This document shows positions 14,950 to 31,949 of a DNA stretch of 32,256 nt, in pieces. Below the pieces are notes generated by a model, which saw nothing but the letters and a program-made list of their open reading frames with translations, had not been told where the DNA came from and did not search any database. Origin of the DNA: a virus. The stretch covers positions 1 to 32,256 of IMG/VR virus record IMGVR_UViG_3300036782_000079; one strand, written 5' to 3'. Position 1 is the first letter of the stretch. Every line of letters begins with the position of its first letter. The position numbers and the translations under genes are program-made.

Positions 14950-15195
14950 ATGCACTACAGAAACGGCAGAGAAGCAAAGAACGGCGATAAGATCGTGAAG
15001 CTGGGCGAGAGTGGAAAGGTCGTAGCTTTCGGCGTGCTGCACAGCGCCACGCCGGGAAACGACTACTGCAACGGCAACATCGCGACCATTCAGCCGCCCA
15101 ACGACTACGCCTGCATGGTGGACTGCCTGCACATCGATGACGTGGCCGACGTGTTGGCAGAAAAGGGATTGAGCAAACGGCCGGACGGCAAATAG
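14950..15195 (+). CDS. Small hypothetical protein after tail tube
   Basis: An 81-residue protein, MHYRNGREAKNGDKIVKLGE, with a strong GAAGGAG ribosome-binding site before ATG 14950. It looks like a small beta-barrel-like domain (GDKIVKLGESGKVVAFGVLH, GNIATIQPPNDYACMVDCLHIDDV) with four cysteines. Similar short genes, often not conserved, interrupt phage tail operons; it may be a moron-like accessory gene since it is followed by its own terminator at 15228. No function recognised. Confidence 0.65.
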   Translation: MHYRNGREAKNGDKIVKLGESGKVVAFGVLHSATPGNDYCNGNIATIQPPNDYACMVDCLHIDDVADVLAEKGLSKRPDGK

Positions 15196-15227
15196 TTCGC
15201 TGCAAAGAGGCCTGAATCCATCGCCAC

Positions 15228-15262
15228 GGCGTGCTGGGAAACCGGCACGCCCTTTTGTTTTT
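15228..15262 (+). terminator. Rho-independent terminator
   Basis: The stem GGCGTGC (15228-15234) / GCACGCC (15245-15251) has a 10-base loop and is followed by CTTTTGTTTTT. It lies between the 81-residue gene and the tail chaperone gene, 19 bases before the latter's ATG, so it probably sets expression of the upstream gene apart from the tail operon. Confidence 0.72.
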
Positions 15263-15281
15263 CGCTCTGAGAGAAAAACCC

Positions 15282-15749
15282 ATGCTCCATCTCGATCTGA
15301 ACGCCGAGCCGTTCTGGCTCGAAGTCCTGCCCGGACAGCGCACGCAATTCCGTCCGATCACGACCAAGACGATCCTGGTCGCGCGCAACGCCGGCGCGCT
15401 TGCCGCCAAGGCCGATCCCGAACATGCCGAAGAGGCAAGCAGCGAGGCGTTCACCCGCTCCTGCGCGCAACAGGGCATCGTCGCGTGGGAAGGCGTCGGC
15501 GACACGTCCGATAACCCGCTGCCGGTCACGCCGGAAGCGATCGCGGCCTATCTCTCCAACTGGCGCATCTACGATGCCATCGACAAGCGCTATGTGATTC
15601 CGGCGCTGGTGCGGGGCGACGAAAAAAACGCATTCGCGCCCTCGCAGAGTGGCACTACGGGGGCGAAAATTCCGGCGAAGGGTTCTGCCGATACTGCACC
15701 CTCCGCCAGCCGCAGGAAGCGCACTGCAAAGAGTGCGCCTACAGCATAA
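15282..15749 (+). CDS. Tail assembly chaperone, G form
   Basis: A 155-residue protein, MLHLDLNAEPFWLEVLPGQR, the zero-frame product of a lambda G/GT-type pair that coats the tape measure during tail assembly. The first 115 residues are conserved-looking (TILVARNAGALAAKADPEHAEE, VTPEAIAAYLSNWRIYDAIDKRYVIPAL). After the slippery site at 15623 the zero frame becomes low-complexity (PSQSGTTGAKIPAKGS, then a basic tail), as is usual for the G form. ATG 15282 has GAGAGAAAAA upstream; a GTG at 15231 lies inside the terminator hairpin and is rejected. Confidence 0.8.
   Translation: MLHLDLNAEPFWLEVLPGQRTQFRPITTKTILVARNAGALAAKADPEHAEEASSEAFTRSCAQQGIVAWEGVGDTSDNPLPVTPEAIAAYLSNWRIYDAIDKRYVIPALVRGDEKNAFAPSQSGTTGAKIPAKGSADTAPSASRRKRTAKSAPTA
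15623..15665 (+). promoter_or_regulatory. -1 programmed ribosomal frameshift signal
   Basis: The slippery heptamer A AAA AAC (15623-15629) is in the correct phase of the G frame (GAA AAA AAC). Seven bases later, CGCCCTCG (15637-15644) pairs with CGGGGGCG (15658-15665), with one G-U pair and a 13-base loop. Heptamer, spacing and stem match known bacterial and phage -1 frameshift sites. Confidence 0.85.
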
Positions 15750-16009
15750 ACGCTCCCGAAACGCCGGACGGCATCGCGGCGTGGGAGCTGATCAAGCGGT
15801 GCACCGGCCAGCTGCGCGTCGCCATCGACGCGCTGGCGCATCCGGACGGCACCGTTCAGATCATCCGCATTGCCACCGGGCTCGACTTCACCGCGGTGCT
15901 GTCGCTCGCGCGCAGCATGGATGCCGAAAGCCCGCTTCTCTGTGACCTCCTCCCCGAAATCGAAGCCTTCGCCGTGCGCGCCTTCAACGCCTCCAATTCC
16001 GAAAGCTGA
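15629..16009 (+). CDS. Tail assembly chaperone, T extension made by -1 frameshift
   Basis: This frame has no usable start codon but is open and well coded from the slippery site to TGA 16007-16009, adding 126 residues (RIRALAEWHYGGENSGEGFC onward) to the first 116 of the G protein, for a 242-residue GT product. It begins with a zinc-ribbon-like pair, CRYC and CKEC (residues 136-152 of the fusion), then AWELIKRCTGQLRVAIDALAH, DFTAVLSLARSMDAESPLLCDLLPEIEAF. GT proteins bind the tape measure through T and recruit tube protein. It ends six bases before the tape measure start. The zinc pair is unusual for a chaperone and could stabilise the T domain. Confidence 0.83.
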   Translation, partial: RIRALAEWHYGGENSGEGFCRYCTLRQPQEAHCKECAYSINAPETPDGIAAWELIKRCTGQLRVAIDALAHPDGTVQIIRIATGLDFTAVLSLARSMDAESPLLCDLLPEIEAFAVRAFNASNSES

Positions 16010-16015
16010 TCCTGC

Positions 16016-19000: not shown

Positions 19001-19249
19001 TTCGCGCCGCGGTTTCACGATGGGGTGTATCTCGGCCCCGACGAAGTGCCGTCCATTCTGCAAACGGGAGAGCGGGTGCTCAACCGCACCGAGACCAAGG
19101 CCTACAACCGGGGCCACGCCGGCGGCGTCACCATCATGCCCGGCGCGATCGTGATCCAGACGCCAAACCCGGGAGCCTTCCACGCTTCCAGCGGACAGAC
19201 GATGGCGAAGCTCGCCGGCGCCGTGCGCAACGGCTCGCGGCGGTACTGA
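16016..19249 (+). CDS. Tail tape measure protein
   Basis: A 1077-residue protein, the longest helical gene of the operon; its length sets tail length and its ejection helps DNA cross the membrane. Residues 1-200 are a charged coiled-coil-like region (IRQMAVRIAMDGKADIQRDL, FDQLTEAQKNAQVAQANQ). About 218-245 is a hydrophobic stretch (AAIGAIVTNPAVDSIAAIVAGGAAIVLAY) that could insert in a membrane. Then comes a TMP_2-like region (SARGVGATKDQIEAYAEAAA) and long Ala/Gln/Lys-rich helices to about 900. The last 120 residues are Gly/Ser-rich and then resemble the conserved TMP tail (FHDGVYLGPDEVPSILQTGERVLNRTE). It follows the G/GT gene as in lambda. Confidence 0.92.
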   Translation: MTIRQMAVRIAMDGKADIQRDLDDIAQSGDAAFAQVGKAIDQGTAAIQRQHAAFDQLTEAQKNAQVAQANQSSFNQLLGVNDNQAGSARDAASTFQAAFSGMEQRAAALRAQIDPLGTVQGKMNDALADANMLLASGTINQTEHAAAVALARKAYDDARKSIVDLSSGEELNATKARELTEVFVHLGEGATAGGLSLRQLGMAAGDLLRASSGEGIGAAIGAIVTNPAVDSIAAIVAGGAAIVLAYNRAEDAENQLTQATELSARGVGATKDQIEAYAEAAAAADNISVRTARDMAAGFAKTGQIGGQQLQGLIDLTVDYARKTGTSMDDAQAEMIKAFTAPQTAGEALLKQLGGLDDNTAQLIERMMQAGDETGAQTVLTTALIKALKDATDQTTWYGNAWQWVKNQYNGVVEAMSKPFKPPSLKDTQAQLQQELALAQQGIGLPTYDPEKRLGGSATTAPARSIADIEADLARVNAAIDATNAKAKQSASDAAAQALSLRAGPLVRGASEESQSDSALASLKANQAQVDALGASQAAMAKSGVTTQQVTEAQDAYTRAIQTYIDPATKQHELEQLAAQAISAKTVAQKVAIAEQQKSVELAGKVVTTAEAQREIDDAGAKARAQATASVKQQTTAVKQNVDAWIDVAAAYLKGSAAGAMAEDSGKKLEESLGHTAITGAKQAAQLADETAARKALNDQVAAGSITSEQSAQAMATENALAPLRIAYDIAEGKAKQELGAILDALTRARANDNAEATRTKALALVQTGNQNIDLLKKELAIANDNDSAREVEIAVLQAKQQLIKDNISADSEEGRQILANAAASTQLNQQLKLAQESRQELEGMFDTLATDASNFLTNGKFSWNDWKQLGLSASKEIETELVKLAAIDPLKNDIFGTNTPTLESVFSAAGGLGKPDGTPTNPIYVVMSPLSSGFNLSGGSSSGGGGLLGWFTSLFGGSSLNSDAAVSIAGVFHAGSMVSPGSGDKRALPSNVLRFAPRFHDGVYLGPDEVPSILQTGERVLNRTETKAYNRGHAGGVTIMPGAIVIQTPNPGAFHASSGQTMAKLAGAVRNGSRRY

Positions 19250-19285
19250 TGTCCTCAAGTAGCGAAGCGGTAGGACAACAATAGC

Positions 19286-19879
19286 ATGGCCTATTTGAGC
19301 GATGCACCCTTTCCGGACGCGGTGGCGCGCGGCGCAACGGGCGGCCCCGGCTTCCTGACGGATGTTGTGGCGCTCGGCTCCGGCGGCGAGCAGCGCAACA
19401 TCCGCTGGAGCCAGGCTCGGGCGAAATACAACATCTCCACCGGCGTGCGCACGCGCGCCCAGATGGCGGATGTTATCGCGCACTTCCGCAATGTCTTCGG
19501 GCGCGGCCATTCGTTCCCGTTCAAGGACTGGACGGATTTCGATTCCGGCGGCGACAATGCGACCGTCCAGCTGACGAGCACCACATTTCAGATCGTCAAG
19601 AACTACGCCGTCGGCGCCAACACCTTCGTCCGCACGATCCTGAGGCCGGTGAACGGAACGGTGGTGGTGAAGGTCAGCGGCAGCATCGTCACGCCGGCGT
19701 CCATCGATTATCTCACCGGCATCATCACCTTTGCATCCGCGCCGTCCGCCACGCCGACCGCCGCGTTTCAGTTCAACGTGCCCGTGCGCTACGACATCGA
19801 CCAGCTGCCGGTGCAGGCGAACTCCTACGACAACCAGATCGTGACGCAGATCGATCTCATCGAGGTCACCGACGAATGA
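19286..19879 (+). CDS. Distal tail protein, DUF2460 (GTA type)
   Basis: A 197-residue protein, AYLSDAPFPDAVARGATGGPGF. The blocks RNIRWSQARAKYNIS, HFRNVFGRGHSFPFKDWTDF, and YLTGIITFASAP with VPVRYDIDQL are diagnostic of DUF2460, which in Rhodobacter gene transfer agents forms the distal tail ring joining tube to baseplate hub. It starts the four-gene GTA-like tip cassette (19286-25203). The ATG of the next gene overlaps its stop. Confidence 0.9.
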   Translation: MAYLSDAPFPDAVARGATGGPGFLTDVVALGSGGEQRNIRWSQARAKYNISTGVRTRAQMADVIAHFRNVFGRGHSFPFKDWTDFDSGGDNATVQLTSTTFQIVKNYAVGANTFVRTILRPVNGTVVVKVSGSIVTPASIDYLTGIITFASAPSATPTAAFQFNVPVRYDIDQLPVQANSYDNQIVTQIDLIEVTDE

Positions 19880-20778
19880 AGACTCTCGATTCCGGTTTGG
19901 CCGCGCACATCGCGCAGACAGTCACCACGCTCGCGTGGTGCTGGAAGCTCACCCGCAATGACGATGTGGTGCAGGGCTTCACCGATCACGACCGCGACCT
20001 TTCCTTCGATGGCGTGACCTATGCCGCGGCAACCGGCTTCACCGCGTCGCAGATGCAGGGATCGCTCGGGCTGCAGGTGGACAACCTCGAAGCCTCCGGC
20101 GCGCTATCGTCCGGCGATCTCAACGAGGACGATCTCGGAGCCGGGCTGTACGACAGCGCCGAGATCGAGATCTGGCGCGTCAACTGGGCGGACACCTCGC
20201 AGCGCGTACTGATGCGCAAGGGCACGCTCGGCGAAGTCAAACGCGGCAAGGCGGCGTTTCAGGCGGAAATCCGCGGGCTGGCGCAAGCGCTCAACCAGCC
20301 GCAAGGGCGCGCCTTCGGCTATGCCTGTGATGCCGATCTCGGCGATTCCCGCTGCTCGCCAAATGGCGAAGTCGATCTCACCGATCCAGCGTTTCTCGGC
20401 AACGGCACGGTGGCGGCGTTGACCGACAACCGCCGCTTCACCGCGACCGGTTTGAGCTTTGTCGATACATGGTGCGGCGGCGGCAAGCTCACCTGGCTGA
20501 CGGGCGCCAATGCTGGCCTGGCGATGGAAGTGAAGCGCTATTCCGTGGTCGCCGGCGTGACGACCATCGAGCTGTGGCAGCCGATGAGCCGGGATGTGGC
20601 GGTCGCCGATACGTTCAAGATCACGGCCGGATGCGACAAGCAGTTTCCGACCTGCAAGGCGAAGTTCGCCAACGTGAAGAATTACCGCGGCTTTCCCTAC
20701 ATGCCGGGCAACGATTCGATCACGTCCTATCCGAACTCCAATCAGGACATGGACGGCGGGAGCTATTATGGAAACTGA
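19876..20778 (+). CDS. Baseplate hub protein, DUF2163/phage BR0599 family
   Basis: A 300-residue protein. The N-terminal DUF2163 part has TLAWCWKLTRNDDVVQGFTDHDRDLSFDGVTY, and a central part QAEIRGLAQALNQPQGRAFGYACDADLGDSRC is followed by the C-terminal BR0599 part ending CDKQFPTCKAKFANVKNYRGFPYMPGND. In gene transfer agents this protein forms the hub and has an iron-binding or cysteine-rich C-terminal region. Six cysteines lie at the expected places. It overlaps the next gene by 11 bases. Confidence 0.9.
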   Translation: MKTLDSGLAAHIAQTVTTLAWCWKLTRNDDVVQGFTDHDRDLSFDGVTYAAATGFTASQMQGSLGLQVDNLEASGALSSGDLNEDDLGAGLYDSAEIEIWRVNWADTSQRVLMRKGTLGEVKRGKAAFQAEIRGLAQALNQPQGRAFGYACDADLGDSRCSPNGEVDLTDPAFLGNGTVAALTDNRRFTATGLSFVDTWCGGGKLTWLTGANAGLAMEVKRYSVVAGVTTIELWQPMSRDVAVADTFKITAGCDKQFPTCKAKFANVKNYRGFPYMPGNDSITSYPNSNQDMDGGSYYGN

Positions 20779-21211
20779 AATTGTCGCCGCCGCGCGCGCA
20801 TGGCTCGGCACGCCGTACATCCATCAGGCGAGCGTCAAGGGCGTGGGCTGCGATTGTCTCGGCCTGTTGCGCGGCATCTGGCGCGAATTGGTCGGCCCCG
20901 AGCCGGAAGGCTTGCCGGCCTATTCCGCTGACTGGGCCGAGGCGAAGCGGCAGGAGACCTTGCGCGATGCGCTGGCGCGCCATCTGGCGCCAGTCGCGCT
21001 GCATGCGATTGCGCCGGGCAACATCGTTCTGTTCCGCATGTTGACCCACGGTCCGGCAAAGCATTGCGGCATCGTCGGTCAGATGGACGGTCGGCGCACG
21101 CTGATTCACGCCCGTCAGAACAAGCGCGTGAGTGAGGAGATGTTCACGGGCGCGTGGTTGCGCAAGCTCGCCTACGCCTTCGCCATGCCCTCTGGCGGCC
21201 AAGCGCGCTAA
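20768..21211 (+). CDS. NlpC/P60-family tail-associated peptidase
   Basis: A 147-residue protein of the phage cell-wall peptidase family that cleaves peptidoglycan peptides when the tail penetrates the envelope. The catalytic Cys30 is in GVGCDCLGLLRG and His99 in AKHCGIVGQM, with a third residue likely in LIHARQ. Start METEIVAAARAWLGTPYIHQ is typical. It is the third gene of the tip cassette, as in gene transfer agents, and its stop overlaps the next start (TAATG). Confidence 0.91.
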   Translation: METEIVAAARAWLGTPYIHQASVKGVGCDCLGLLRGIWRELVGPEPEGLPAYSADWAEAKRQETLRDALARHLAPVALHAIAPGNIVLFRMLTHGPAKHCGIVGQMDGRRTLIHARQNKRVSEEMFTGAWLRKLAYAFAMPSGGQAR

Positions 21212-24200
21212 TGGCATCGCTGGTCTTGGGACTGGCCGGCTCCGCCCTCGGCGCCGGCCTCGGCAGCTTTTCGCTGTTCGGCGTGGCTGTCTCCGGCGCG
21301 GAGATCGGCGGCTTCATCGGCACGGCGGTTGGCGGCATCGTCGATCAGATGCTGTTCGGCCAGACCACCTCGCAGAAGGGCCCGCGGCTCACCGACACCA
21401 ACATCACGACGTCGACCGAAGGGACGCCGATTCCGCGCATCGACGGCTATATCCGTATCGCCGGGCAGCTGATCTGGCGCACGAAGTACAAGGAAAAGAA
21501 GAAGACCGAGAGCTCCGGCGGCAAAGGGTTCGGCGGTGGCACGCAAACCACGACCTACAGCTACTCGATCTCCATCGCGATCGGGCTGTGCGAAGGCGTC
21601 GTCCACAAGCTGGGCCGCATTTGGGCGGACGGGCAACTGATCGATGCCAGCAAGCTCACCTTGCGCTTTTATCAGGGCACGGAAGATCAGCTGCCCGATC
21701 CGCTGACGGAAGAGATCGAGGGCGACGGCAACAATCCCGCCTATCGCGGGCATTGCTATGTCGTGTTCGAGGATTTGGACCTCACCCCGTTCGGCAATCG
21801 AATCCCGCAACTGCAATTCGAGCTGGTGCGCTCGATCACGGCGGACCGCGCCGACGCGCTGGAGAACGTGCTGGTCGGCGTCAACCTGATCCCCGGCGCC
21901 GGCGAGTTCGTCTACCAGACCGACGTCATCTCGACGGACGATGGCGCCGGCACCACCTCGACGCAGAACAAGAACAATTCGGACGGCATCGCAGACTACG
22001 TGTCGTCGATGAACGATCTGCAGGCGATCGCGCCGAACGTGCAGACGGTTTCGCTGGTGGTGGGATGGTTCGGCAGCGACGAGCGCGCCGGCTCCTGCCT
22101 GATCAAGCCGAAGGTCGAGACGCACGACAAGCAGACCTATCCGAAGAGCTGGACGGTCAACGGCCTCTCGCGCGGCGATGCCGAGGAAGTCTCGCAAGTT
22201 GGCGGCCGCCCGAGCTATGGCGGAACGCCCTCGGATGACGGCGTGGTGCAGGCGATTGCGGATTTGAAGTCGCGCGGCTATCGCGTGACGTTCTATCCCT
22301 TCCTCTTCATGGACATCGCGAGCGGCAATTCGCTGCCCGATCCCTATTCCGACAATGCGAGCACGACGGGACAGCCGGCGTTTCCCTGGCGCGGGCGCAT
22401 CACCTGCTCGCCGGCGGCCGGGTTCGCGGGCACGGTCGATCAAACGTCCACGGCCACAACCCAGGTCGATGCCTTCTTCGGCAACGCCTCGTCTTCCGAT
22501 TACTCCGTGAGCGGAACAAGTGTAAGCTGGACCGGCGGCGACGACTGGGGCTGGCGCCGCATGGTGCTGCACTACGCCAAGCTGTGCGTGGCGGCCGGCG
22601 GCGTCGAGACCTTCATCATCGGCTCCGAGTTGCGCGGGCTCACGCGTGTGCGCAGCGACGCCACGACCTATCCCGCCGTCGCCGCGCTCAAGACCCTGGC
22701 CGCGGATGTGAAGGCGATTGTCGGTTCCGGCTGCAAGGTGTCCTACGCGGCGGACTGGAGCGAGTACAACAACCATCAGACGGGCGATGCCGCCGGCGCG
22801 GTGCTGTTCAACCTCGATCCCTTGTGGAGCGATTCCCACATCGATTTCGTCGGCATCGACAATTACATGCCGCTGGCGGATTGGCGCGACGGCGGCGGCC
22901 TCGATTACGACGCGGTCAACGGCCCCACATCGATCTACGGCCGCGCTTATCTGCAAGCCAACATCAAGGGCGGCGAAGGCTACGACTGGTATTACCCGTC
23001 GTCCGGCGCCACCGGAAACGAAGCCTCGCCGGAACGCATCGCGCAGACGCGCACCGCGATCACCGATGGCGTGGCGGACAAGCCCTGGGTGTTCCGCCCC
23101 AAAGATCTGTGGAACTGGTGGAGCAACGCGCACTATGACCGTCCGGATGGTTCGGAGAGCGGAACGGCCACCGATTGGGTTTCCGAATCCAAGCCGATCC
23201 GTTTCACCGAGCTCGGTTGCCCGGCCGTCAACAAGGGCGCCAATCAGCCCAACGTCTTCGTCGATCCGAAAAGCTCCGAAAGCTTCCTGCCCTATTTCTC
23301 GACCGGCGAGCGCGACGATCTCATGCAGCGCGCCTTCCTCGAGGCGCATCTGAACTATTGGCCGCTGTCGGCGAACAATCCGACCTCGACGGTCTACGGC
23401 GCGCCGATGCTCGACTTCGACAGCACCAGCGTATGGTGCTGGGATGCGCGCCCGTTCCCGTTCTTCCCGCAGCGGTCCGATCTGTGGGCGGATTGCGCGA
23501 ACTACGATCTCGGCCATTGGCTCAACGGACGCCTCGGCGCCGTGCTGCTGTCCGATCTGGTCGCGGAGATTTGCGACTACAACGGCTTCGAAGATTACGA
23601 CGTGTCGAACCTGTCCGGCATCGTGACCGGCTTCATGCGCAACAGCACGATGAGCGGGCGCGACGAGATCAGCCCGCTGATGACGGCGTTCTTTTTCGAT
23701 GCGGTGGAAAGCCAGGGCCTAATCAAGTTCGTCATGCGCGGACAGCCGAACGTCACCGAGATCGACGAGGGCGATCTGGTGGTCGATCCCGAATCCGACC
23801 AGAATTTCAGCTTCACCTTCACCGATGCGCAGACGGACGATCTGCCGCTGGCGTGGCGTTTCACCTTCATCGATGCCGGCAACGATTATCAGCAGGGCGT
23901 GTATCAGGCGAAGCGCCTGGTCGGAAACTCGAACCGCATCGATCAAGTCTCGCTGCCCTTCGTGATGGACCGTTCGCAGATGGGCGGCATCGGCGACCGG
24001 TTGATCCAGGAAGCATGGACGTCGCGCGGCACCGGCGCGTTCTCGCTGCCGCCGCTGTTCACCGCGCTCGATCCGGCCGATGAAATCGTGATCACGGCGG
24101 GCACCCGCACCCGCCGCATGCGCGTGACGGAAATCAACGACACGGCTTCGCGTGCCATCTCGGCGACGGTGACCGATCCGTCGATCTACGAAGCCTTCAC

Positions 24201-25203
24201 CGGCCCGGCGCGCTCGACGCATCCCGTCATCCTGCCGCTCGACACCGGCCGCGACCTGGTCGTGTTCGCCGACCTGCCGATGCTGACGGACGATGCGGTT
24301 GCGTGGTCGCCCTACGTGGGCGCGTTCGGCGCACCGTGGCCGGGCCAGGTGCTGATCTTCCGGAGCGCCACCGACACGAACTACCAGCTCGACACGGCCA
24401 TTCCGACGGCCGCCAGCATCGGCGTGACCTTGCTCGATTTCTATTCCGGGCCCGCCTGGCGCTGGGACCGCGTGAACGAACTGAACGTCGAGCTGTACGA
24501 CGGAACGCTGTCTTCCGCTTCCGACGACATCACCGTGTTCGGCGGCGCGAATGCGCTGGCCATCGAGAATGCCGATGGCCGCTGGGAGATCGTGCAGTTC
24601 GAGACGGCGGAGTTGATCGGCTCCGGGCAATGGAAACTCACCAACCTGTTGCGCGGCCAGCGCGGCACGGAAGCCCAGATGCGCGATCCCGTGGCCGCCG
24701 GCGCGCGCGTGCTGGTGCTGGATACCACGCTGCTGCAGCTCGATCTCGCGCAGAACGAGTTCAACCTCGCCTTCAATTATCTGTGGGGGCCGCAGGACAA
24801 GGACATCTCCGATCCCGCGTATCAGAGCGGCGCGTTTACTTTCGCGGGCGTTGGCTTGCGGCCATTCTCGCCGTGCCAGCTCGACGCCGTCTACGACGCG
24901 AGCGGCGATCTCCTGCTGACGTGGCTCAGGCGCGATCGCTCGCCCGATGCGGATTCGTGGGATCAGACCGAGATCCCGATGAGCGAGCAGAGCGAGAGCT
25001 ACGATGTCGATATTCTCGATGGTGCCGGCGCCGTGAAGCGCACCTTCGCCGCGCTCTCGTCGGCCGCCGCGACCTACACGGCGGGCGAGATCGCGAGCGA
25101 TTTCCCGAGCGGGCTGCCGTCGCCGTTCCGCTTCACCGTGTACCAGAACTCCTCGAAAATTGGCCGCGGCACGCCAGCGTCCGCCTCCATCCTCTTTTCC
25201 TGA
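21211..25203 (+). CDS. Tail hub/fibre protein with GTA TIM-barrel
   Basis: A 1330-residue protein. The N-terminus is Gly/Ala-rich and hydrophobic (about 1-48, GLAGSALGAGLGSFS, GGFIGTAVGGIVDQ). Residues about 430-760 form a glycosidase-like TIM barrel (MVLHYAKLCVAAGGVETFII, CKVSYAADWSEYNNHQTG, HIDFVGIDNYMPLADW), which in gene transfer agents may process surface glycans. A Phage-tail_3-like part follows near 840-1000 (EIDEGDLVVDPESDQNFSF), then C-terminal beta domains with NLLRGQRGTEAQMRD. It is the last gene of the tip cassette, comparable to GTA gp15. ATG 21211 is used because it overlaps the peptidase stop; upstream in-frame starts fall inside that gene. Confidence 0.92.
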   Translation: MASLVLGLAGSALGAGLGSFSLFGVAVSGAEIGGFIGTAVGGIVDQMLFGQTTSQKGPRLTDTNITTSTEGTPIPRIDGYIRIAGQLIWRTKYKEKKKTESSGGKGFGGGTQTTTYSYSISIAIGLCEGVVHKLGRIWADGQLIDASKLTLRFYQGTEDQLPDPLTEEIEGDGNNPAYRGHCYVVFEDLDLTPFGNRIPQLQFELVRSITADRADALENVLVGVNLIPGAGEFVYQTDVISTDDGAGTTSTQNKNNSDGIADYVSSMNDLQAIAPNVQTVSLVVGWFGSDERAGSCLIKPKVETHDKQTYPKSWTVNGLSRGDAEEVSQVGGRPSYGGTPSDDGVVQAIADLKSRGYRVTFYPFLFMDIASGNSLPDPYSDNASTTGQPAFPWRGRITCSPAAGFAGTVDQTSTATTQVDAFFGNASSSDYSVSGTSVSWTGGDDWGWRRMVLHYAKLCVAAGGVETFIIGSELRGLTRVRSDATTYPAVAALKTLAADVKAIVGSGCKVSYAADWSEYNNHQTGDAAGAVLFNLDPLWSDSHIDFVGIDNYMPLADWRDGGGLDYDAVNGPTSIYGRAYLQANIKGGEGYDWYYPSSGATGNEASPERIAQTRTAITDGVADKPWVFRPKDLWNWWSNAHYDRPDGSESGTATDWVSESKPIRFTELGCPAVNKGANQPNVFVDPKSSESFLPYFSTGERDDLMQRAFLEAHLNYWPLSANNPTSTVYGAPMLDFDSTSVWCWDARPFPFFPQRSDLWADCANYDLGHWLNGRLGAVLLSDLVAEICDYNGFEDYDVSNLSGIVTGFMRNSTMSGRDEISPLMTAFFFDAVESQGLIKFVMRGQPNVTEIDEGDLVVDPESDQNFSFTFTDAQTDDLPLAWRFTFIDAGNDYQQGVYQAKRLVGNSNRIDQVSLPFVMDRSQMGGIGDRLIQEAWTSRGTGAFSLPPLFTALDPADEIVITAGTRTRRMRVTEINDTASRAISATVTDPSIYEAFTGPARSTHPVILPLDTGRDLVVFADLPMLTDDAVAWSPYVGAFGAPWPGQVLIFRSATDTNYQLDTAIPTAASIGVTLLDFYSGPAWRWDRVNELNVELYDGTLSSASDDITVFGGANALAIENADGRWEIVQFETAELIGSGQWKLTNLLRGQRGTEAQMRDPVAAGARVLVLDTTLLQLDLAQNEFNLAFNYLWGPQDKDISDPAYQSGAFTFAGVGLRPFSPCQLDAVYDASGDLLLTWLRRDRSPDADSWDQTEIPMSEQSESYDVDILDGAGAVKRTFAALSSAAATYTAGEIASDFPSGLPSPFRFTVYQNSSKIGRGTPASASILFS

Positions 25204-25216
25204 AAGGACAGAGACC

Positions 25217-26953
25217 ATGACAGACGAAACGCCTCGCATGGCGTTGCCCGAGCTCGCGGCATCGCAATCGCAGAAACATGTCACGCACAACGAAGCGCTG
25301 CTGCAGCTCGATGCGTTGGTGTGTTGCGGCATTCTCGATCGCGACCTGTCGACGCCGCCGGGCTCGCCTTCCGATGGCGACACCTATCTGGTGAAGGCGA
25401 CGGGCACGGGCGCCTGGGCCGGTCAGGACGGCAAGATTGCCTTCTCCGTCGACGGCGCGTGGCGCTTCTACGCGCCGTTCAACGGGCTGGCCGCGTATGT
25501 GTCCGACGAATCCGTGCTGCTCGTCTACAACGGCTCGGCCTGGGTGGATTACGCCAGCATCATCAGCTTGCAGAATGTGCCGATGGTGGGCGTCAACACG
25601 ACGGCGGATTCCACCAACAAGCTCGCGGTAAAATCGGCGGCGCTGCTGTTCGACAACATCGGCAACGGCGTCCAGGCCAAGCTGAACAAGCATGCTAGCG
25701 GCGACACCGCTTCGATCCTCTACCAGGACAATTACTCCGGCCGTGCCGAAGTTGGCCTCACCGGCGACGACAATTTCCACTTCAAGGTCTCGCCAGACGG
25801 CTCGACCTTCTATGAGGCGCTGATCCTCAATCGCAACACCGGCTCGCAGCTGCTCAAGCATGTCGATGTGACGGGCGCCACGACCGTGGGCGCCACGCAT
25901 CTCGGCCGCCTGGTGCGGGCGGATGCCAGCGGCGGTGCCTTCGTCGTGACCTTGCCCGCAAGCGCCGATGCCGACGATTGGGTGATCGTTCGCAAGAAGG
26001 ATTCCGGCAGCAACCGCGTCAAGGTGCAGGACAGCTCCGCCAACGATCTGGCGTGGCTGTCGGCGCAATACGACGAGGTGCTGTTTGCGTTCTGGGACAG
26101 CGCCTGGACGCCGGTGCGCTGGAAGATCGCGCCGATCATCGATGTCTTCACTTCCTCCGGCACCTGGACGCGGCCGCCGCTGGTGACGCGTGCGGACCTG
26201 CTGTGTGTCGGCGCCGGTGGTGGCGGCGGCAGCGGACGACAGGGCGCGGCCGCATCGGCGCGCGCCGGCGGCATCGGCGGCACCGCCGGCAGCGTCAATC
26301 TCGCTAGCGTCGTCGCGTCGCAGCTTTCGTCCACCGCCGCGGTGACGGTCGGCGCTGGTGGCAATGGAGGCACCGCTCAAACATCGAGCAGCAGCAACGG
26401 CAATGCCGGCAGCGCCGGCGGCACATCGTCCTTCGGTTCCGTCATCCAGGCCAATGGCGGATCGGCCGGCCCGGGTGGAACGACAAGCGCCGTCAATGGC
26501 ACGGGCACCAACAGCCAGACATCCTCCTTCGTCAGCCCGGCGACGCAAGGAGCGAATTCCGTCACGTCCACCGGCACGGCGCCCGTGAGTTCGACCGGGC
26601 CGACCTGCGGCGGCGTTGGCGGCGGGATCAGCACCGCCGACGCGGCTTTCGATGGCACCGCGAGTGGCGCGGCCTCGCGCGGCGCGAATCCCATCGCCAG
26701 CGCCGGAAGCGCCGGAACATCCGGCGGCGCTGGCGGGGCCGGCAACGCGATCGCGTCGAGTGCCGCCCCCTATTACGGCGGCTCGGGTGGCGGCGGCGGC
26801 GGAGCGTCGATCACGGCCGCGGCTGGTGCCGGCGGCGCCGGTGGTGCGCCTGGCGGTGGCGGCGGCGGCGGTGGTGCCAGCCTCAACGGCAACAATTCCG
26901 GCGCGGGCGGCGCTGGCGCGCGCGGCGAAGTGCGCGTGACCAGCTACTTCTAA
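25217..26953 (+). CDS. Tail fibre with DUF2793 head and polyglycine tip
   Basis: A 578-residue protein. Residues 5-115 are a DUF2793 domain (MALPELAASQSQKHVTHNEA, PPGSPSDGDTYLVKATGTGAWAG), which attaches fibres to the tail tip in alphaproteobacterial phages. A beta-rich shaft follows (about 115-325). From about 333 to the end it is glycine-rich, with runs such as GAGGGGGSG and GGSGGGGGGAS, finishing GGAGARGEVRVTSYF. Such glycine-rich tips can form polyglycine-II sandwiches that expose receptor-binding loops, as in S16/T4-like adhesins. AAAGGA precedes ATG 25217. Likely the receptor-binding protein. Confidence 0.85.
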   Translation: MTDETPRMALPELAASQSQKHVTHNEALLQLDALVCCGILDRDLSTPPGSPSDGDTYLVKATGTGAWAGQDGKIAFSVDGAWRFYAPFNGLAAYVSDESVLLVYNGSAWVDYASIISLQNVPMVGVNTTADSTNKLAVKSAALLFDNIGNGVQAKLNKHASGDTASILYQDNYSGRAEVGLTGDDNFHFKVSPDGSTFYEALILNRNTGSQLLKHVDVTGATTVGATHLGRLVRADASGGAFVVTLPASADADDWVIVRKKDSGSNRVKVQDSSANDLAWLSAQYDEVLFAFWDSAWTPVRWKIAPIIDVFTSSGTWTRPPLVTRADLLCVGAGGGGGSGRQGAAASARAGGIGGTAGSVNLASVVASQLSSTAAVTVGAGGNGGTAQTSSSSNGNAGSAGGTSSFGSVIQANGGSAGPGGTTSAVNGTGTNSQTSSFVSPATQGANSVTSTGTAPVSSTGPTCGGVGGGISTADAAFDGTASGAASRGANPIASAGSAGTSGGAGGAGNAIASSAAPYYGGSGGGGGGASITAAAGAGGAGGAPGGGGGGGGASLNGNNSGAGGAGARGEVRVTSYF

Positions 26954-26965
26954 AGAGGAAATCCC

Positions 26966-27154
26966 ATGGCCGCGAAGTATGCGCTGCTCGATGCGATCGG
27001 CACGGTCACAAACGTTGTCGAGTGGGATGGCGTCACGCCCTACGACCCGGGCGCCGGCCTCACGATAGAAGTGCTGCCGGACGGCGTGTGGATCGGCTGG
27101 ACGAAGAACGCCGGCGGCACCTGGTCGCCACCGCGGAACGAGGCAGATCAGTGA
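26966..27154 (+). CDS. Small hypothetical protein after tail fibre
   Basis: A 62-residue protein, MAAKYALLDAIGTVTNVVEW, with AGAGGA ten bases upstream. It resembles short tail-fibre companion proteins (VTNVVEWDGVTPYDPGAGLTIEVLPDG, then IGWTKNAGGTWSPP), a W-rich beta module often found just after fibre genes. It may cap or help fold the fibre; the function is inferred from position. Confidence 0.65.
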   Translation: MAAKYALLDAIGTVTNVVEWDGVTPYDPGAGLTIEVLPDGVWIGWTKNAGGTWSPPRNEADQ

Positions 27155-27205
27155 GCGGGCGCGCGAAGCTCGCCGTCGAACACCGCGACCGCTGACATTC
27201 CGCAG

Positions 27206-27439
27206 ATGTCCGGAATTGCGGCTGCGCTGATGGCGCTCGGCCTGACGGTTGCCGATGTGAACTGCGATCAGTGGGAGCGCACCAACGACGGCGTGTGGCG
27301 CACGGAATCCACCGCCACGATCCTATTCACCAATGGCAGCACGGCAACGCTCAGCCGCGCCGATGTGCGCGAGCGCAGGAGCGATCTCTATCAGTCGCTC
27401 GAATATCTCTGCCGCATGGAAATCCATGGCGGCGTGTGA
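27206..27439 (+). CDS. Hypothetical protein
   Basis: A 77-residue protein, MSGIAAALMALGLTVADVNC, with an amphipathic N-terminal helix and a beta-rich middle (GVWRTESTATILFTNGSTATLSRADVRER). No good ribosome-binding site is seen before ATG 27206, and the 51-base gap upstream shows nothing else. No family recognised. Its stop overlaps a palindromic repeat copy at 27439. Confidence 0.5.
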   Translation: MSGIAAALMALGLTVADVNCDQWERTNDGVWRTESTATILFTNGSTATLSRADVRERRSDLYQSLEYLCRMEIHGGV

Positions 27440-27463
27440 GCGAAGCACGCAGAGCGTGCTCGC
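27439..27463 (+). repeat. Palindromic repeat, 25-bp copy
   Basis: The left arm is GCGAAGCACGC, the loop AGA, and the right arm GCGTGCTCGC. It is two bases shorter than the consensus, with the right arm changed (TTCGC to CTCGC). It lies in the 113-base gap before the next gene. Confidence 0.75.
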
Positions 27464-27552
27464 AAGAATCAATCGCACGTCGCCGGATGAACCGGCCCGG
27501 CCGCCCCCGGAAAACCGCGCGGTCATTTCACGACAACAACGGAGAAGATCAC

Positions 27553-27795
27553 ATGAAAATCTGGCCTATCCTGCAAAGCTTTCTCGCCCCCGTCGAACAG
27601 ACGGCGATGGAAACCGCCGTGCCGATTGCAGAGACCGCTGTCGACACGGTGCTCGCAAGCAATCCGGCGCTGTCGCCTTTCGCAGCGATCGCCAACGCCC
27701 TGATCGAAGGGGCGGAGAAATTCGCGGCGGCAAATATCCACCCCAACGCTGCGGTCGCGGCCGTGACGCATACGGTGAACGCGCGCGGCAGCTGA
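27553..27795 (+). CDS. Hypothetical late protein in lysis-side region
   Basis: An 80-residue, Ala-rich helical protein, MKIWPILQSFLAPVEQTAME, with GGAGA seven bases upstream. It includes TAVDTVLASNPALSPFAAIANALIEGAEKFAAANI. No clear transmembrane span or motif. Genes of this sort are common just before holin genes in Rhizobiales prophages; function unknown. A terminator follows at 27814. Confidence 0.6.
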   Translation: MKIWPILQSFLAPVEQTAMETAVPIAETAVDTVLASNPALSPFAAIANALIEGAEKFAAANIHPNAAVAAVTHTVNARGS

Positions 27796-27813
27796 ACGCC
27801 CGTGAATAACGAA

Positions 27814-27849
27814 GAGCGCGCCCGGTGCCGGAGCGGGCGCGCTCTTTTT
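27814..27849 (+). terminator. Strong rho-independent terminator
   Basis: The stem GAGCGCGCCCG (27814-27824) / CGGGCGCGCTC (27834-27844) is a perfect 11-bp hairpin with a 9-base loop, followed at once by TTTTT. It closes the tail transcription unit ahead of the holin-like gene. Confidence 0.88.
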
Positions 27850-27891
27850 CCTGTTGCGTATTCCGGCGAACACTTCGATGGGGCGCGTGCC

Positions 27892-28236
27892 ATGGCAGAA
27901 ACAAATTCCGACAACATGCGAAGCCTTTCGCAGCGCGCCTACGCGTTCGCGACCAACGGCGGGGGTGCCATCACCTATCGCCTGGTGTTGGTCGCGGCGG
28001 CAACGATCCTGCTTGCCCTGGTGCGGTGGATCGGCAACGAGCAAACCGCCACGCTTCGTTCGATCGATAGCAGACTTCAGCACGTGGAGCAGTCTCTCCC
28101 GAGCTACGACGTACGCATCCTCGGCAACGCCCAGGCGATCCAGCAGGAGCGCGATGACCAGACGCGGCTATGGAGCAGCGAGACCGACCACGAGCATCGC
28201 ATCACGGTGCTGGAGTCCCGCCTGCCGCCGCGGTGA
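27892..28236 (+). CDS. Holin-like membrane protein with coiled coil
   Basis: A 114-residue protein, MAETNSDNMRSLSQRAYAFA, with one transmembrane segment (about residues 28-43, YRLVLVAAATILLALV) followed by a polar helical region with a coiled-coil-like pattern (ATLRSIDSRLQHVEQSL and HEHRITVLESRLPPR). It lacks a signal peptide. Size and layout fit holin or spanin-like lysis proteins, but no specific family is recognised and no dedicated endolysin is seen beside it. It is the last rightward gene; the next genes are on the opposite strand and converge 18 bases later. Confidence 0.5.
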   Translation: MAETNSDNMRSLSQRAYAFATNGGGAITYRLVLVAAATILLALVRWIGNEQTATLRSIDSRLQHVEQSLPSYDVRILGNAQAIQQERDDQTRLWSSETDHEHRITVLESRLPPR

Positions 28237-28254: not shown

Positions 28255-28650
28255 TCAGGTGCGTTGCGCGACGAACCGCCGGATATTCGCCAACAGCTGG
28301 CGACGGTCTTTCAGTTCCGGAAGACGGCCCAATTCGGCCAGGAATTCTGCCTCGGTAGGACTTTTGCCGCCAAGCTCGGGTTGCGAACCGGGTTCCGCAT
28401 AGAAGAATAGAACGCTCACGCCGAACAATCTCGCGACGTCGAATAGCCGTCCGGCGCCGATGCGGTTGATCCCACGCTCGTATTTTTGAACCTGCTGGAA
28501 GGTGAGGCCGAGTTGCTTGCCGAGCTGCTGTTGAGAAAGCCCGCGTGCGACGCGGAGCGCGCGCAGGTTTTGACCGACACGAATGTCGGTGTCGCCTGGC
28601 CGCTTGACTGACGGGCTATCGCGGTTCAGTTCCGTCGCTCGCTGGGAAAT
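28255..28650 (-). CDS. XRE-family repressor-like protein with no ordinary start codon
   Basis: The minus-strand frame from 28683 to the stop at 28255-28257 is open and encodes a clear XRE/Cro HTH: IRVGQNLRALRVARGLSQQQ then LGLTFQQVQKYERGINRIGA, followed by LFDVARLFGVSVLFFYAEPG and a C-terminal helical part PTEAEFLAELGRLPELKDRR. It looks like the short cI-like or Rhizobiales family of such regulators. No ATG, GTG or TTG is in frame before the HTH. Candidates are ATT 28650 (used here) and CTG 28629. An ATG close to the promoter start is out of frame and reads only 12 codons. So this is either non-canonical initiation, a frameshifted gene, or a sequence error. Confidence 0.72.
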   Translation of the reverse strand: MSQRATELNRDSPSVKRPGDTDIRVGQNLRALRVARGLSQQQLGKQLGLTFQQVQKYERGINRIGAGRLFDVARLFGVSVLFFYAEPGSQPELGGKSPTEAEFLAELGRLPELKDRRQLLANIRRFVAQRT

Positions 28651-28667
28651 GTCGCCTGCTTCATAGA

Positions 28668-28696
28668 AGATTCTGTCACGCCGTCACAAATGTCAA
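28668..28696 (-). promoter_or_regulatory. Possible promoter of the XRE gene
   Basis: On the minus strand TTGACA (28696-28691), 17 bases, then GAATCT (28673-28668). Direct GTCAC/GTCAA repeats lie within this stretch. A transcript would begin near the out-of-frame ATG, so it could be leaderless. The -10 is a poor match. Confidence 0.35.
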
Positions 28697-28702: not shown

Positions 28703-28975
28703 TCAAATCAACCCCGAGCGCTGCCGATTGGAATCGTTGCCTGCGGAGGCTCGCTGAGAGCGCTTTCCGTGATCGTAGACGATCTTCATCAGGGCGTCGA
28801 CGTAGGGCTCGGCTTCGTCAGCCAAACCCAACTCCTTCATCGACAACAGGAGTGCCAGCAACTGCTCCATGACGGCCTCGGAGCGCGGATCGAGCGGTGA
28901 ATCGCGTCGGCCGGAGACCGCGCTTGTGCGGACGAGAGGTTTGGCGTCGCGGATTTTTGGTGACCGAGTGTTCAT
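28703..28975 (-). CDS. Small protein translationally coupled to LuxI-PhyH gene
   Basis: A 90-residue protein, MNTRSPKIRDAKPLVRTS, whose ATG overlaps the stop of the LuxI-PhyH gene (ATGA, 28972-28975). The middle is a leucine-rich helix (EAVMEQLLALLLSMKELGLA) followed by DEAEPYVDALMKIVYDHGKR and a basic/Ser tail. No known motif. Coupling suggests equimolar production with the signal synthase. Small helical partners in QS operons can be antiactivators (as TraM or QseM), but there is no sequence similarity that I recognise to support that. Confidence 0.6.
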   Translation of the reverse strand: MNTRSPKIRDAKPLVRTSAVSGRRDSPLDPRSEAVMEQLLALLLSMKELGLADEAEPYVDALMKIVYDHGKRSQRASAGNDSNRQRSGLI

Positions 28976-30615
28976 TGTGCAGAGCCGGAATAGAGGGAGG
29001 AGATGCGGAATTCCGGGAACGGGCGGGGCCACACGACCGGAAACTGCCTGCTGTCCAGGCGGTCGCCATCGCGCAACGAATGACGGTGGTGCGGCTGCTC
29101 CGGCGCGCCAGGCCGTCTTCGGAACCGCATGTCCTCGCCGGCATAGCGCAAGGATAGCGCACGCCTTGGATGATCCGAGAGATTGCCGCCAGCCCCATGC
29201 ACCGTGCGGAAGTGATGGACGATCACGTCACCAGGATGCGTTTCGAATGTGATCGTATCGAAGGCCGATAGCCGTTCCTCGATGTCGTCGAGATCGTCGC
29301 CAGCGCTTCCCGGAAGCCGGGTTTGCGCCATGAACACGTTCGGCGCGAACTCGCGGCCCCAGCGATGCGAGCCGCGCAGGTAGAACGGCGCGCCGGATTT
29401 CGCATCTGCGTCGTCGACGCAAATCCACATGACGCAGCCTTGCTCGCCGTCGAGATGGAAATAGGTGCAGTCCTGATGCACCGCCGTGCGGTCGATCGTG
29501 TGCGGCGATTTCAGAAAAATCTGATCGTCGCAGAAATTAACCTTCGAGGCGCGGAGGAGCGCGGCGGCGATATTCGGCAGGGGCGAATCCAGCGCGATCC
29601 GGCGAACGGCCGCATTTCGCATCCACGTCGTCGTGTCGAGCACAAAATGACCTGCACACTGCTCGTGGAGCGGCTCGGTCAGCGCGCGTTTGCCGGACGC
29701 GCGTATGACGCTCGTAAGCGAGGTCACGTCGTGTTGCGTCGCGCCGCCTGCGGCCGCGGCGGCATTTCCGCCGTCGAAGATTGCCGTGCGCAAGACGGTC
29801 AGGTCATAACCAGTCGCCGTTTTGCCGACGTCGCGGCCAAGCTCGTCGAGCGCGTCGCGCAGCTCCTCAATCGCCTGGCCGGATAGCGAGTTCCGGATGG
29901 CGATCACGCCGTCCCGCTCGAATTGTTCCACCTGTTCCTTGCTGACGTGATCGCCGCGCCGAACTTCCTCGGCAGCAAGAAGCTGCTTCAGCGGCGTGTC
30001 GCCGCCGCGATACACCACGATGTCGCCGTCAATGCCGTACGCGTGCCGGGCGGCGGCAAGCGCCGCTGGGCTGACGGCATACGAAACCGCAACGTAGGTC
30101 TCGCCGTCGTCCATCCGGCGCGGAATGCCCAAAGGACGAATGTTCCAGCCGATCCGGAGGTAGCGGCTCATGACGGAAATCGGGTTGATGCCGGTGAAGC
30201 CTGTGGCGCCGGCTCGCAGGCAGAACTCCATGACCCCAGTCATCAGGACGTGGCGCGCGATTCTGGCTTCTGCCCGCGTAAGGCGCTCCTCGTCGATGCA
30301 GGTCCGGCCGCACTCGACGATTCCCGGACCGCGCTGCACGCCGCGGACGTCGCAGAAGTCGGAAAACACCTCGGATATGAGGTGCGGCTTGACCGTCGGT
30401 ATGATGCGGTGACAGCCGACCACACGCGCGCCGTCAGTCACCAGCAGGTAGATGGCATCGCTGTTGTCGAATTCGTCCAGTTCGCGGCCGTCGGCCTTTT
30501 GCAGCGCCTTCCATCCAAGCCGGTCAACAAAGACGCGGTGGCGCAGCCGATGCATCTGCTCGATCTGGTCCTGATAACCATCGCGGTTTTCACGCGACAC
30601 GACTTCCATCAGCAC
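28972..30615 (-). CDS. Acyl-homoserine-lactone synthase (LuxI) fused to PhyH-type dioxygenase
   Basis: A 547-residue protein. Residues 1-200 are a full LuxI domain: Arg25 and Phe29 (RHRVF), Trp35 (RLGW), Asp47/Asp50 (DEFD), Arg70 (GCHRIIPT), Phe84, Glu101 and Arg104 (ECGRT) occupy the conserved LuxI positions, so the synthase looks intact. From about 222 (VSKEQVEQFERDGVIAIRN) to about 500 is a phytanoyl-CoA-dioxygenase-like Fe(II)/2-oxoglutarate oxygenase with metal ligands His380, Asp382 (AVHQDCTYF) and His473 (RTVHGAG), a likely 2OG Arg484 (PRRALSLRY), and LRGSHRWG near 413-420. It begins at GTG 30615, seven bases after GGAGG; an ATG two codons on is less well spaced. An 18-bp palindrome lies 55 bases upstream. 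LuxI makes AHL from SAM and acyl carrier; PhyH hydroxylates acyl chains, so a hydroxylated AHL is a reasonable inference. Confidence 0.9.
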   Translation of the reverse strand: MLMEVVSRENRDGYQDQIEQMHRLRHRVFVDRLGWKALQKADGRELDEFDNSDAIYLLVTDGARVVGCHRIIPTVKPHLISEVFSDFCDVRGVQRGPGIVECGRTCIDEERLTRAEARIARHVLMTGVMEFCLRAGATGFTGINPISVMSRYLRIGWNIRPLGIPRRMDDGETYVAVSYAVSPAALAAARHAYGIDGDIVVYRGGDTPLKQLLAAEEVRRGDHVSKEQVEQFERDGVIAIRNSLSGQAIEELRDALDELGRDVGKTATGYDLTVLRTAIFDGGNAAAAAGGATQHDVTSLTSVIRASGKRALTEPLHEQCAGHFVLDTTTWMRNAAVRRIALDSPLPNIAAALLRASKVNFCDDQIFLKSPHTIDRTAVHQDCTYFHLDGEQGCVMWICVDDADAKSGAPFYLRGSHRWGREFAPNVFMAQTRLPGSAGDDLDDIEERLSAFDTITFETHPGDVIVHHFRTVHGAGGNLSDHPRRALSLRYAGEDMRFRRRPGAPEQPHHRHSLRDGDRLDSRQFPVVWPRPFPEFRISSLYSGSAQ

Positions 30616-30669: not shown

Positions 30670-30687
30670 ATCCCGAGGATTCGGGAT
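30670..30687. promoter_or_regulatory. lux-box-like 18-bp inverted repeat upstream of luxI fusion
   Basis: ATCCCGA, GGAT, TCGGGAT: perfect 7-base arms around four bases, 18 bp in all, the size of alphaproteobacterial lux/tra boxes. It is 55 bases from the luxI-phyH start and 10 bases past the luxR stop. With no T-run nearby it does not look like a terminator. LuxR binding is inferred. Confidence 0.5.
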
Positions 30688-30696: not shown

Positions 30697-31422
30697 CTAA
30701 GGCCGGATCAGGGCGTGTGCCATGCAGATTGCGACGGCATGCGTGCGATTCATCGCGTCCAGCTTTCGCAGCGCATTTCTGACGTGCGAATGAACCGTCT
30801 GCTCGGCTATCGACAGGATTTGGCCGATTTCCCAGTCGGTCTTGCCAGCCGCGGCCCACGCGATGCAATCCCGCTCACGGGTCGTAAGGCCGTGTTTCTG
30901 CTTGACCGGCCTTGGTGCCGCGGCGCGCAGTTTCTCGAGGCGTGCCTGGAAGTAGATCGCGGCCATATGGAGCGATCCCTTGTCCCGCTCGCTCAGGTCG
31001 CACTGTTCGCCGGCGATGGTGATGCCGATTGTCTGGCCGTGCCGAATAACGGGGATGCCGAGCCCATCCCGCATCCGGAAATCACAGGCCGCGACGTCCA
31101 TCACTTCGGCACCGGATTCGTCGGCCCGTTGTCGTACGTCGCTCCATCGAAACGGCACCGAGGTCGCGAGCAACTGGTACACGACCGGATCGACCGCCGC
31201 GAAGTTCTTCTGCTGCCAGACCGAGGCCCAGCCATCCGGCCAGGTGGCGCACCAAACGCGATCCTCAACGGCGAGCTTTGGTGCGGTGGCATTCCCGACG
31301 CAATATGCTCCGAACCCGTACTGGCCGATCAGGCCCTGAAAGGCGGCGACGAGTTCCTCGACGGTGTCGATCTCTTTGACGCGATCGATGAAGTCGAACG
31401 CTGCCAGAAATTTCTCGGCCAC
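30697..31422 (-). CDS. LuxR-family autoinducer-binding transcription factor
   Basis: A 241-residue protein. Residues 10-160 are an autoinducer-binding domain. Aligned to TraR, Trp65 matches W57, Asp78-Pro79 (KNFAAVDPVV) match D70-P71, Trp93 matches W85, and Gly120 matches G113; Tyr61 is replaced by Trp69, which could alter acyl-chain fit. Residues 175-235 are a LuxR/GerE HTH (GLTTRERDCIAWAAAGKTDW then EIGQILSIAEQTVHSHVRNALRKL). It starts at GTG 31422 behind GGGGAG. It lies just upstream of luxI-phyH on the same strand, so the pair forms a circuit in which AHL-bound LuxR probably activates luxI-phyH. Confidence 0.93.
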   Translation of the reverse strand: MAEKFLAAFDFIDRVKEIDTVEELVAAFQGLIGQYGFGAYCVGNATAPKLAVEDRVWCATWPDGWASVWQQKNFAAVDPVVYQLLATSVPFRWSDVRQRADESGAEVMDVAACDFRMRDGLGIPVIRHGQTIGITIAGEQCDLSERDKGSLHMAAIYFQARLEKLRAAAPRPVKQKHGLTTRERDCIAWAAAGKTDWEIGQILSIAEQTVHSHVRNALRKLDAMNRTHAVAICMAHALIRP

Positions 31423-31486: not shown

Positions 31487-31669
31487 TCAGAGGTGCCCGA
31501 ACATCCAGAGCGCGCAGTAGGCCAGCCAGGCGGTCATCGTGAGCGCTACGCCGGCACTGAGCCAATAGGCGTGCTTTCGAGTTGCCGCCGCAAGCCCGGC
31601 GCTCCTGCGCGCGCCCAGAAGCGACGTGGCGGCAGCAAATGCGAGGGTCAGCGCGATCGCGAGATGCAT
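31487..31669 (-). CDS. Small two-span membrane protein upstream of luxR
   Basis: A 60-residue protein, MHLAIALTLAFAAATSLLGA, with two hydrophobic segments (residues 2-20 and about 36-57, LSAGVALTMTAWLAYCALWM) separated by a basic loop (RRSAGLAAATRKHAY), predicting a hairpin in the membrane with the loop in the cytoplasm. The ribosome-binding site is weak and the start is uncertain; the frame is open further upstream. Function unknown, no family recognised. Confidence 0.5.
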   Translation of the reverse strand: MHLAIALTLAFAAATSLLGARRSAGLAAATRKHAYWLSAGVALTMTAWLAYCALWMFGHL

Positions 31670-31709: not shown

Positions 31710-31949
31710 TCAGGCGTCGCAAAGTGTGCGTCGAACCTCGGAAGCGAGGCGCGCCGCCGCCCAGATCGCGCCGGTGATCGCGGCAGGCACGGTTGCCTCG
31801 GCGTGGCAGGCGGCCAGGGCGCACACCAGCACGCCGTCCAGCTGCTCGACCGTCGAGGTAATATTCTCCCGTTCGGCGCGATCGCTCGCGCGTGATTCTG
31901 CTTTTGCGAACACGCTCTCGCGCGCTTCGCATTGATCGTTTCTCGCCAT
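31710..31949 (-). CDS. Hypothetical protein containing an in-frame palindromic repeat
   Basis: A 79-residue protein, MARNDQCEARESVFAKAESR, whose residues 7-15 come from the palindromic repeat at 31905-31931 read in the SEARESVFA-type frame. The remainder is a mixed helical sequence (EQLDGVLVCALAACHAEATV, then PAAITGAIWAAARLASEVRR) with a hydrophobic patch. A GGGAG lies 14 bases before ATG 31949, rather far. It could be a real small gene with an inserted element or a chance frame. Confidence 0.4.
   Translation of the reverse strand: MARNDQCEARESVFAKAESRASDRAERENITSTVEQLDGVLVCALAACHAEATVPAAITGAIWAAARLASEVRRTLCDA
31905..31931 (-). repeat. 27-bp palindromic repeat in minus-strand gene
   Basis: Minus-strand orientation with left arm GCGAAGCGCGC, loop GAGA and right arm GCGTGTTCGC. 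It falls on codon boundaries of the 31710-31949 frame, giving CEARESVFA (first residue varied). Confidence 0.8.

Follow-up and report, generated by a model that had tools for sequence, protein, structure and literature searches.

A 32,256-nt viral contig (the whole stretch of DNA that was analysed, hereafter the window) carries, at the right end of a lambda-type phage, a small leftward cassette in which a LuxI-type AHL synthase and a PhyH-type Fe(II)/2-oxoglutarate oxygenase are encoded by a single reading frame. The order of the genes, the intact catalytic residues of both domains, an unfused version of the same cassette in a bacterial genome (G410) and the membership of the oxygenase half in a PhyH clade whose other members all adjoin luxI are the observations from which we argue. 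We propose that this is a phage-borne quorum-sensing cassette in which one protein both makes and oxidises an AHL, a reading to which we assign a probability slightly above even (about 0.55).

Two enzyme domains in one frame

The minus-strand frame was translated through 547 codons with zero internal stops, in agreement with the earlier note, which had described one continuous AHL synthase–oxygenase frame, and its GTG start agrees with that of the nearest LuxI (MLMEVV). The Pfam search that the note had advised matched both families: Autoind_synth (PF00765) at residues 14–175 (E=8e-31; 107 bits, with a cut-off of 24) and PhyH (PF05721) at residues 232–486 (E=2.4e-28), the latter over the full length of its profile (positions 1–213 of 213). 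Every catalytic residue that had been named from the translation is present in both domains, and the oxygenase domain is complete. In an alignment of the fusion LuxI with five other LuxI proteins, Arg25, Asp47, Asp50, Arg70, Glu101 and Arg104 are invariant, and Phe29 and Trp35 vary in one distant row; the seven luxI-linked PhyH proteins compared all have His380, Asp382, His473 and Arg484. Because homology to LuxI can be traced up to about residue 217 and homology to PhyH from 223–224 onwards, both domains are whole and the join spans about 6 residues. With 547 residues and a second complete enzyme domain, the protein departs from the single-domain size of about 200 residues that is usual, if not strictly defining, for LuxI proteins. 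AlphaFold with a shallow alignment modelled the LuxI half only, the PhyH half having pLDDT values mostly below 50. A C-terminal ...AAE is frequent in the alignments of both LuxI and luxI-linked PhyH proteins and is absent from the fusion at both places.

The two halves of the protein differ in lineage. In the LuxI tree, the fusion LuxI is sister to the LuxI of G410 (support 100/99), within a clade that lacks this PhyH and apart from the phyH-linked LuxIs. In the PhyH tree, the oxygenase half lies inside the luxI-linked clade (95/94; 96% of bootstrap trees) as sister to four luxI-linked members from the host order of the phage (99/97), and PhyH proteins without a luxI neighbour branch elsewhere (95/94). 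Over the full domain, the closest PhyH proteins share 37–46% identity with the fusion, and luxI lies directly upstream of their genes in 17 of 17 genomes (G471, G468, G472, G388, G127, G478 and 11 more), as part of separate adjacent luxR, luxI and phyH genes that run in the same direction; a PraR-like xre gene is found close by in 6 of the 11 further genomes. The fusion keeps the order of these loci, save that luxI and phyH are joined. As judged from the two trees, the protein is a mosaic, with a LuxI from the G410 lineage and a PhyH from the luxI-linked clade, and it is therefore not an ordinary luxI-phyH pair that has lost a stop codon. Tandem luxR-luxI-phyH-like-luxR-luxI arrays were also seen in G005 (L063), G435 (L090) and G448 (L094), in which a second, different PhyH-like subfamily adjoins luxI; in G005 and G435 the array is followed by a ketoacyl-synthase III-like gene.

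The fusion has been seen once, in one assembled metagenomic contig. The search for other proteins with both domains, also advised in the earlier note, returned no comparable fusion from the phage, plasmid and IMG/VR collections or from about 1,200 genome scans (sets of 385, 96, 6, 398, 1 and 347, with some genomes counted twice). Scanning for close relatives with the fusion itself gave no match in IMG/VR and only separate LuxI or PhyH proteins in genome contigs; tblastn against phage and plasmid records gave no match covering 80% of the query, and scans of IMG/VR in which alignments of LuxI and of PhyH were used one at a time gave no confirmed match. Apparent full-length matches in genomes were rejected as read-through across the stops of adjacent luxI and phyH genes. 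No relevant report of a multidomain LuxI fusion, nor of a LuxI-PhyH fusion, was among the papers that the literature search listed. LuxI-like genes do occur in other phage records (MT835580, OQ572407 and Acinetobacter phage MD-2021a), and in MT835580 a luxR-like gene adjoins the LuxI-like gene.

The phage, its relatives and the cassette

The position of the fusion beside late phage genes, as claimed in the earlier note, was confirmed: the window is an IMG/VR virus record with terminase, portal, capsid and tail genes (Table 1), and is a lambda-type phage with the cassette at its right end. Of the "prophage setting" proposed there, the viral part stands, whereas integration is not directly visible in a contig that is linear and whose left end cuts into the primase gene.

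Table 1. Features of the window and of one related prophage (positions refer to the window unless another contig is named)
Feature	Position	Strand	Remarks
Phage early (primase) and late genes	2..28236	+	Domain searches
Terminase	3656-5842	+	
Portal, lambda-type	6316-8211	+	
Capsid	8208-10508	+	
Tape measure	16016-19249	+	
Tail genes	21154-25203	+	
Fibre	25160-26953	+	
Small genes	up to 28236	+	
XRE-family repressor frame, PraR-like	28255..28683	-	HTH_3, E=4e-14
Small ORF, 90 aa	28703..28975	-	ATG overlaps the fusion stop (ATGA); positional analogue of CinS/MmaP
luxI::phyH fusion	28972..30615	-	547 aa, GTG start; LuxI residues 1-217, PhyH about 223-532
18-bp perfect dyad ATCCCGA-N4-TCGGGAT	30670..30687	.	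Between luxR and fusion; candidate lux box
luxR	30697..31422	-	241 aa; autoinducer-binding domain and GerE HTH; directly upstream of fusion
up1, small membrane-protein ORF	31487..31669	-	Upstream of luxR; size and place like a G403 prophage-end gene, weak pairwise E=0.002
up2, small ORF	31710..31901	-	37% identical to first gene of the G403 prophage-end pair
S24/cI-cro-like region of G403 prophage	L174 14833-15924 = G403:C56:102832-103923		

Related prophages were selected by terminase matches and not by tail matches. Relatives of the terminase at 63–74% identity are found in an IMG/VR contig (L141) and in prophages of G403, G404 and G005, the G404:C20 prophage terminase being 57–67% identical to that of the window. 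These three genomes belong to one alphaproteobacterial order and, because terminase-related prophages sit in it, this order is probably the host range of the phage. The 1349-aa tail protein of the window (21154–25203) has relatives in 40 of 96 genomes of the host order, at up to 63% identity; as a mark of related prophages these matches were partly dropped, since some lie at loci that resemble gene transfer agents (GTAs) more than prophages, with regulators and cytochrome genes after the fibre gene.

The cassette reads luxR, luxI::phyH, the small ORF and a PraR-type XRE gene, all leftward and opposed to the late genes. An unfused luxR-luxI-ORF-xre cassette with the same gene order and direction is present in a genome of the same order of bacteria (G410:C29; L085). 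Its LuxR and LuxI are each 65% identical to those of the window and its XRE 41%; the small ORF follows luxI with the same ATGA overlap, whereas its LuxI ends at 231 aa, and no PhyH was found in the region of G410:C29 examined. The G410 contig opens with a holin gene, about 4.6 kb before luxR, that has 93% DNA identity to the holin gene of the G404:C20 prophage; beyond the cassette lie a tRNA-Thr and a metG-like gene. Because it is placed between a phage holin and tRNA-Thr/metG, the G410 cassette, which lacks PhyH, likewise lies at the right end of a prophage that belongs to the same family. In G404:C20 itself, the holin is followed by accessory genes that include a putative DNA methyltransferase (L107 2151–6194), and the right end of phages of this type looks like a cargo site.

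Within the cassette, the perfect dyad between luxR and the fusion occurs once in the window, in the 81-nt gap between these genes, where about 0.06 such dyads would be expected at the window's own rate. The small ORF had no Pfam match, and its sequence was not significantly similar to that of the G410 small ORF. The XRE frame, which is 46–48% identical to the xre genes near luxR-luxI-phyH in six genomes, was missed by the list of open reading frames because it contains no in-frame ATG, GTG or TTG start; a perfect 7-bp dyad (ACCGACA-N4-TGTCGGT, 28573–28590) lies in its start region and is a possible operator. Upstream of luxR, two 25-bp repeats that are 96% identical (31906–31930 and 32137–32161) have GCGAA/TTCGC ends, and inverted arms occupy 32043–32053 and 32179–32189. 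Also upstream, up2 and, more weakly, up1 resemble a gene pair that the G403 prophage carries, with matching orientation, near its right end and close to its border; an IMG/VR scan gave no confirmed relative of up2. In its early region, about 9 kb beyond the primase gene, the G403 prophage carries an S24-type repressor gene and a small opposed gene, an arrangement like that of cI and cro.

Signal chemistry and the use of the cassette

The earlier note suggested that the acyl chain might come from acyl-CoA, which our comparison does not favour. The solved synthases that best match the fusion LuxI domain in sequence are 5w8a (BjaI) and 6wn0 (RpaI), both acyl-CoA-dependent enzymes in which a Trp-Trp "indole platform" is credited with the preference for CoA (PMC8188788). 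The fusion differs from them in having Ser147-Val148 at the aligned positions and, because the Trp-Trp platform is thus replaced, acyl-ACP would be the more likely donor. For the oxygenase, profile searches place MysH and SnoK as the nearest solved relatives of the luxI-linked PhyH set, well ahead of human phytanoyl-CoA dioxygenase; as these match far better than the human enzyme, alpha-hydroxylation of an acyl-CoA cannot be read from the name of the PhyH family. From linkage and fusion we infer that the AHL or its acyl donor is the substrate of the oxygenase. Action of the oxygenase in the signal pathway is made more plausible by the closest phyH genes, which are directly downstream of luxI in 17 of 17 genomes, and the fusion suggests that it works on the signal itself, as in ordinary bacteria the two are separate neighbouring genes whose partnership has had no explanation. 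Searches for biochemical work on luxI-linked PhyH proteins found none, which counts against our reading. For NovI of Novosphingobium Rr2-17, from a locus of the luxI-phyH type, an assay of the synthase showed 3-OH and unsubstituted AHLs (PMC11674143); such ordinary AHLs lend no support to modification by PhyH, yet are compatible with its action at a later step.

We envisage that a temperate alphaproteobacterial phage carries at its right end a self-contained quorum-sensing cassette, in which the LuxI domain would condense SAM with acyl-ACP to give an AHL, and the tethered PhyH domain would then oxidise that AHL or its acyl donor. The simplest such oxidation would be hydroxylation of the acyl chain, at a position that we leave unspecified. 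Synthesis and modification would come from one polypeptide at a fixed 1:1 ratio. The cognate LuxR would bind the product and act at the dyad before the fusion, resulting in autoinduction and in higher expression of the small ORF, whose product, by analogy with CinS and MmaP, may bind and disarm the XRE repressor. The outcome would be a private signal among those that carry the cassette, with the phage cargo re-tuning host or prophage genes according to the density of lysogens. Points against this scheme are that it comes from a single contig, that the small ORF is dissimilar to its G410 counterpart and that the XRE frame lacks a usual start codon.

Several known systems resemble the cassette in part. 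In the novR-novI-phyH loci of the Sphingomonadaceae, whose synteny has been published (PMC3704786, PMC4288048, PMC5012321), luxR and luxI are directly followed by a gene of the phytanoyl-CoA-dioxygenase family, as here, but these are separate bacterial genes rather than one phage-borne protein. CinS of Rhizobium leguminosarum and MmaP of Methylobacterium are small proteins that are made with an AHL synthase and bind the XRE protein PraR (PMC4149787, PMC10790750). The cinR-cinI-cinS and mmaI-mmaP systems share with the window an AHL synthase, a coupled small protein and an XRE/HipB-type PraR; in contrast, they have no PhyH and their xre gene lies elsewhere in the genome, whereas that of the window is within the cassette. 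The small ORF matches CinS and MmaP in position and kind, and homology to them is not recognisable from the Pfam search, which gave it no match. In the Phaeobacter inhibens prophages Phage A and Phage B, xre-luxR-luxI modules set the choice between lysis and lysogeny (PMC13345283). These Roseobacter modules are likewise phage-borne, operon-like cassettes of LuxI, LuxR and an XRE regulator, but they begin with xre, have a divergent hth gene and a single-domain LuxI, lack PhyH and belong to other phage families; moreover, they replace cI/cro, whereas the G403 relative of the window phage keeps a cI-type repressor.

The last of these precedents raises the possibility that the cassette is the phage's own lysis–lysogeny switch, with AHL-bound LuxR driving the operon and the XRE protein silencing lytic genes when lysogens are abundant. 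Such a switch is a matter of how the signal is used and is compatible with the chemistry proposed above. The same three gene types are present in a leftward cassette opposed to the late genes, and such prophage switches have been published (PMC13345283). However, xre is last rather than first, no divergent hth gene was found upstream of luxR, the cassette is at the right end and not by the early genes, and the early region of G403, of which the matching part is absent from the window contig, has its own S24-type cI and small opposed gene. We consider a switch somewhat unlikely. Because a related prophage has this cI-like repressor, and gene order and position also differ from those of the Phaeobacter modules, cargo is at least as likely as a role in phage control. 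The phage-encoded density sensing raised in the earlier note is thus plausible and has been demonstrated elsewhere (PMC13345283), but the cI/cro-type pair of G403 allows that the cassette is cargo instead. It is more doubtful still that the contig runs at its right end into the host DNA beside an integrated prophage, and that its quorum-sensing genes are chromosomal. Although the module sits where the contig stops, luxR-luxI-phyH operons usually belong to chromosomes and no attachment site was identified in the window, the homologous cassette of G410 sits at a prophage end between holin and tRNA-Thr/metG, up2 and up1 resemble the right-end pair of the G403 prophage in the same orientation (albeit near that border), and composition is uniform across the window; we regard host origin as quite improbable.

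Another explanation holds that PhyH does not modify the signal, but oxidises some other metabolite or a breakdown product of the signal, or inactivates the AHL as a quencher built into the synthase, the fusion serving co-expression only. The substrates of the PhyH superfamily are very varied, as the resemblance to MysH and SnoK illustrates, and an output or clean-up enzyme would fit equally well with the separate downstream phyH gene of chromosomes. Nevertheless, the tight one-to-one linkage with luxI and the covalent fusion suggest that PhyH and LuxI have a substrate or product in common, and a quencher fused to a synthase would be self-defeating unless regulated; we judge this explanation unlikely. 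Least credible to us is an artefactual origin of the fusion, through misassembly or sequencing error, or a recent deletion that merged two genes into a dead one. The fusion is known from a single metagenomic contig, the xre frame beside it, which has no usual start, makes a local indel error possible, and luxI and phyH are only 15–41 nt apart in several chromosomes, such that loss of a stop could join them. However, the join keeps the frame and falls at the borders of the domains, neither catalytic set has lost a residue, and a mosaic of two lineages would not arise from an overlooked stop in one ordinary luxI-phyH operon.

Meaning for luxI-phyH signalling

Neighbouring luxI and phyH genes and prophage-borne LuxI/LuxR have already been published; the new part is the LuxI-PhyH fusion. 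What the PhyH enzymes encoded next to luxI catalyse has been an unanswered question since 2013 or earlier, and in 2016 was explicitly described so (PMC5012321). The covalent joining of LuxI and PhyH suggests that they have a substrate or product in common, and offers a single gene with which the PhyH reaction can be tested. More tentatively, and at somewhat less than even odds, we suggest that a bifunctional AHL synthase–oxygenase would produce oxidised AHLs of a new class that the cassette's own LuxR alone can read, a private chemical channel for the phage, and that the many chromosomal luxI-phyH pairs would make such signals too. If so, routine AHL screens would be overlooking the oxidised AHLs of these chromosomal pairs. 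Should the product prove to be an oxidised AHL, the chemistry of a widespread branch of alphaproteobacterial signalling would have been wrongly described, and a phage would have taken over that branch for a signal of its own.
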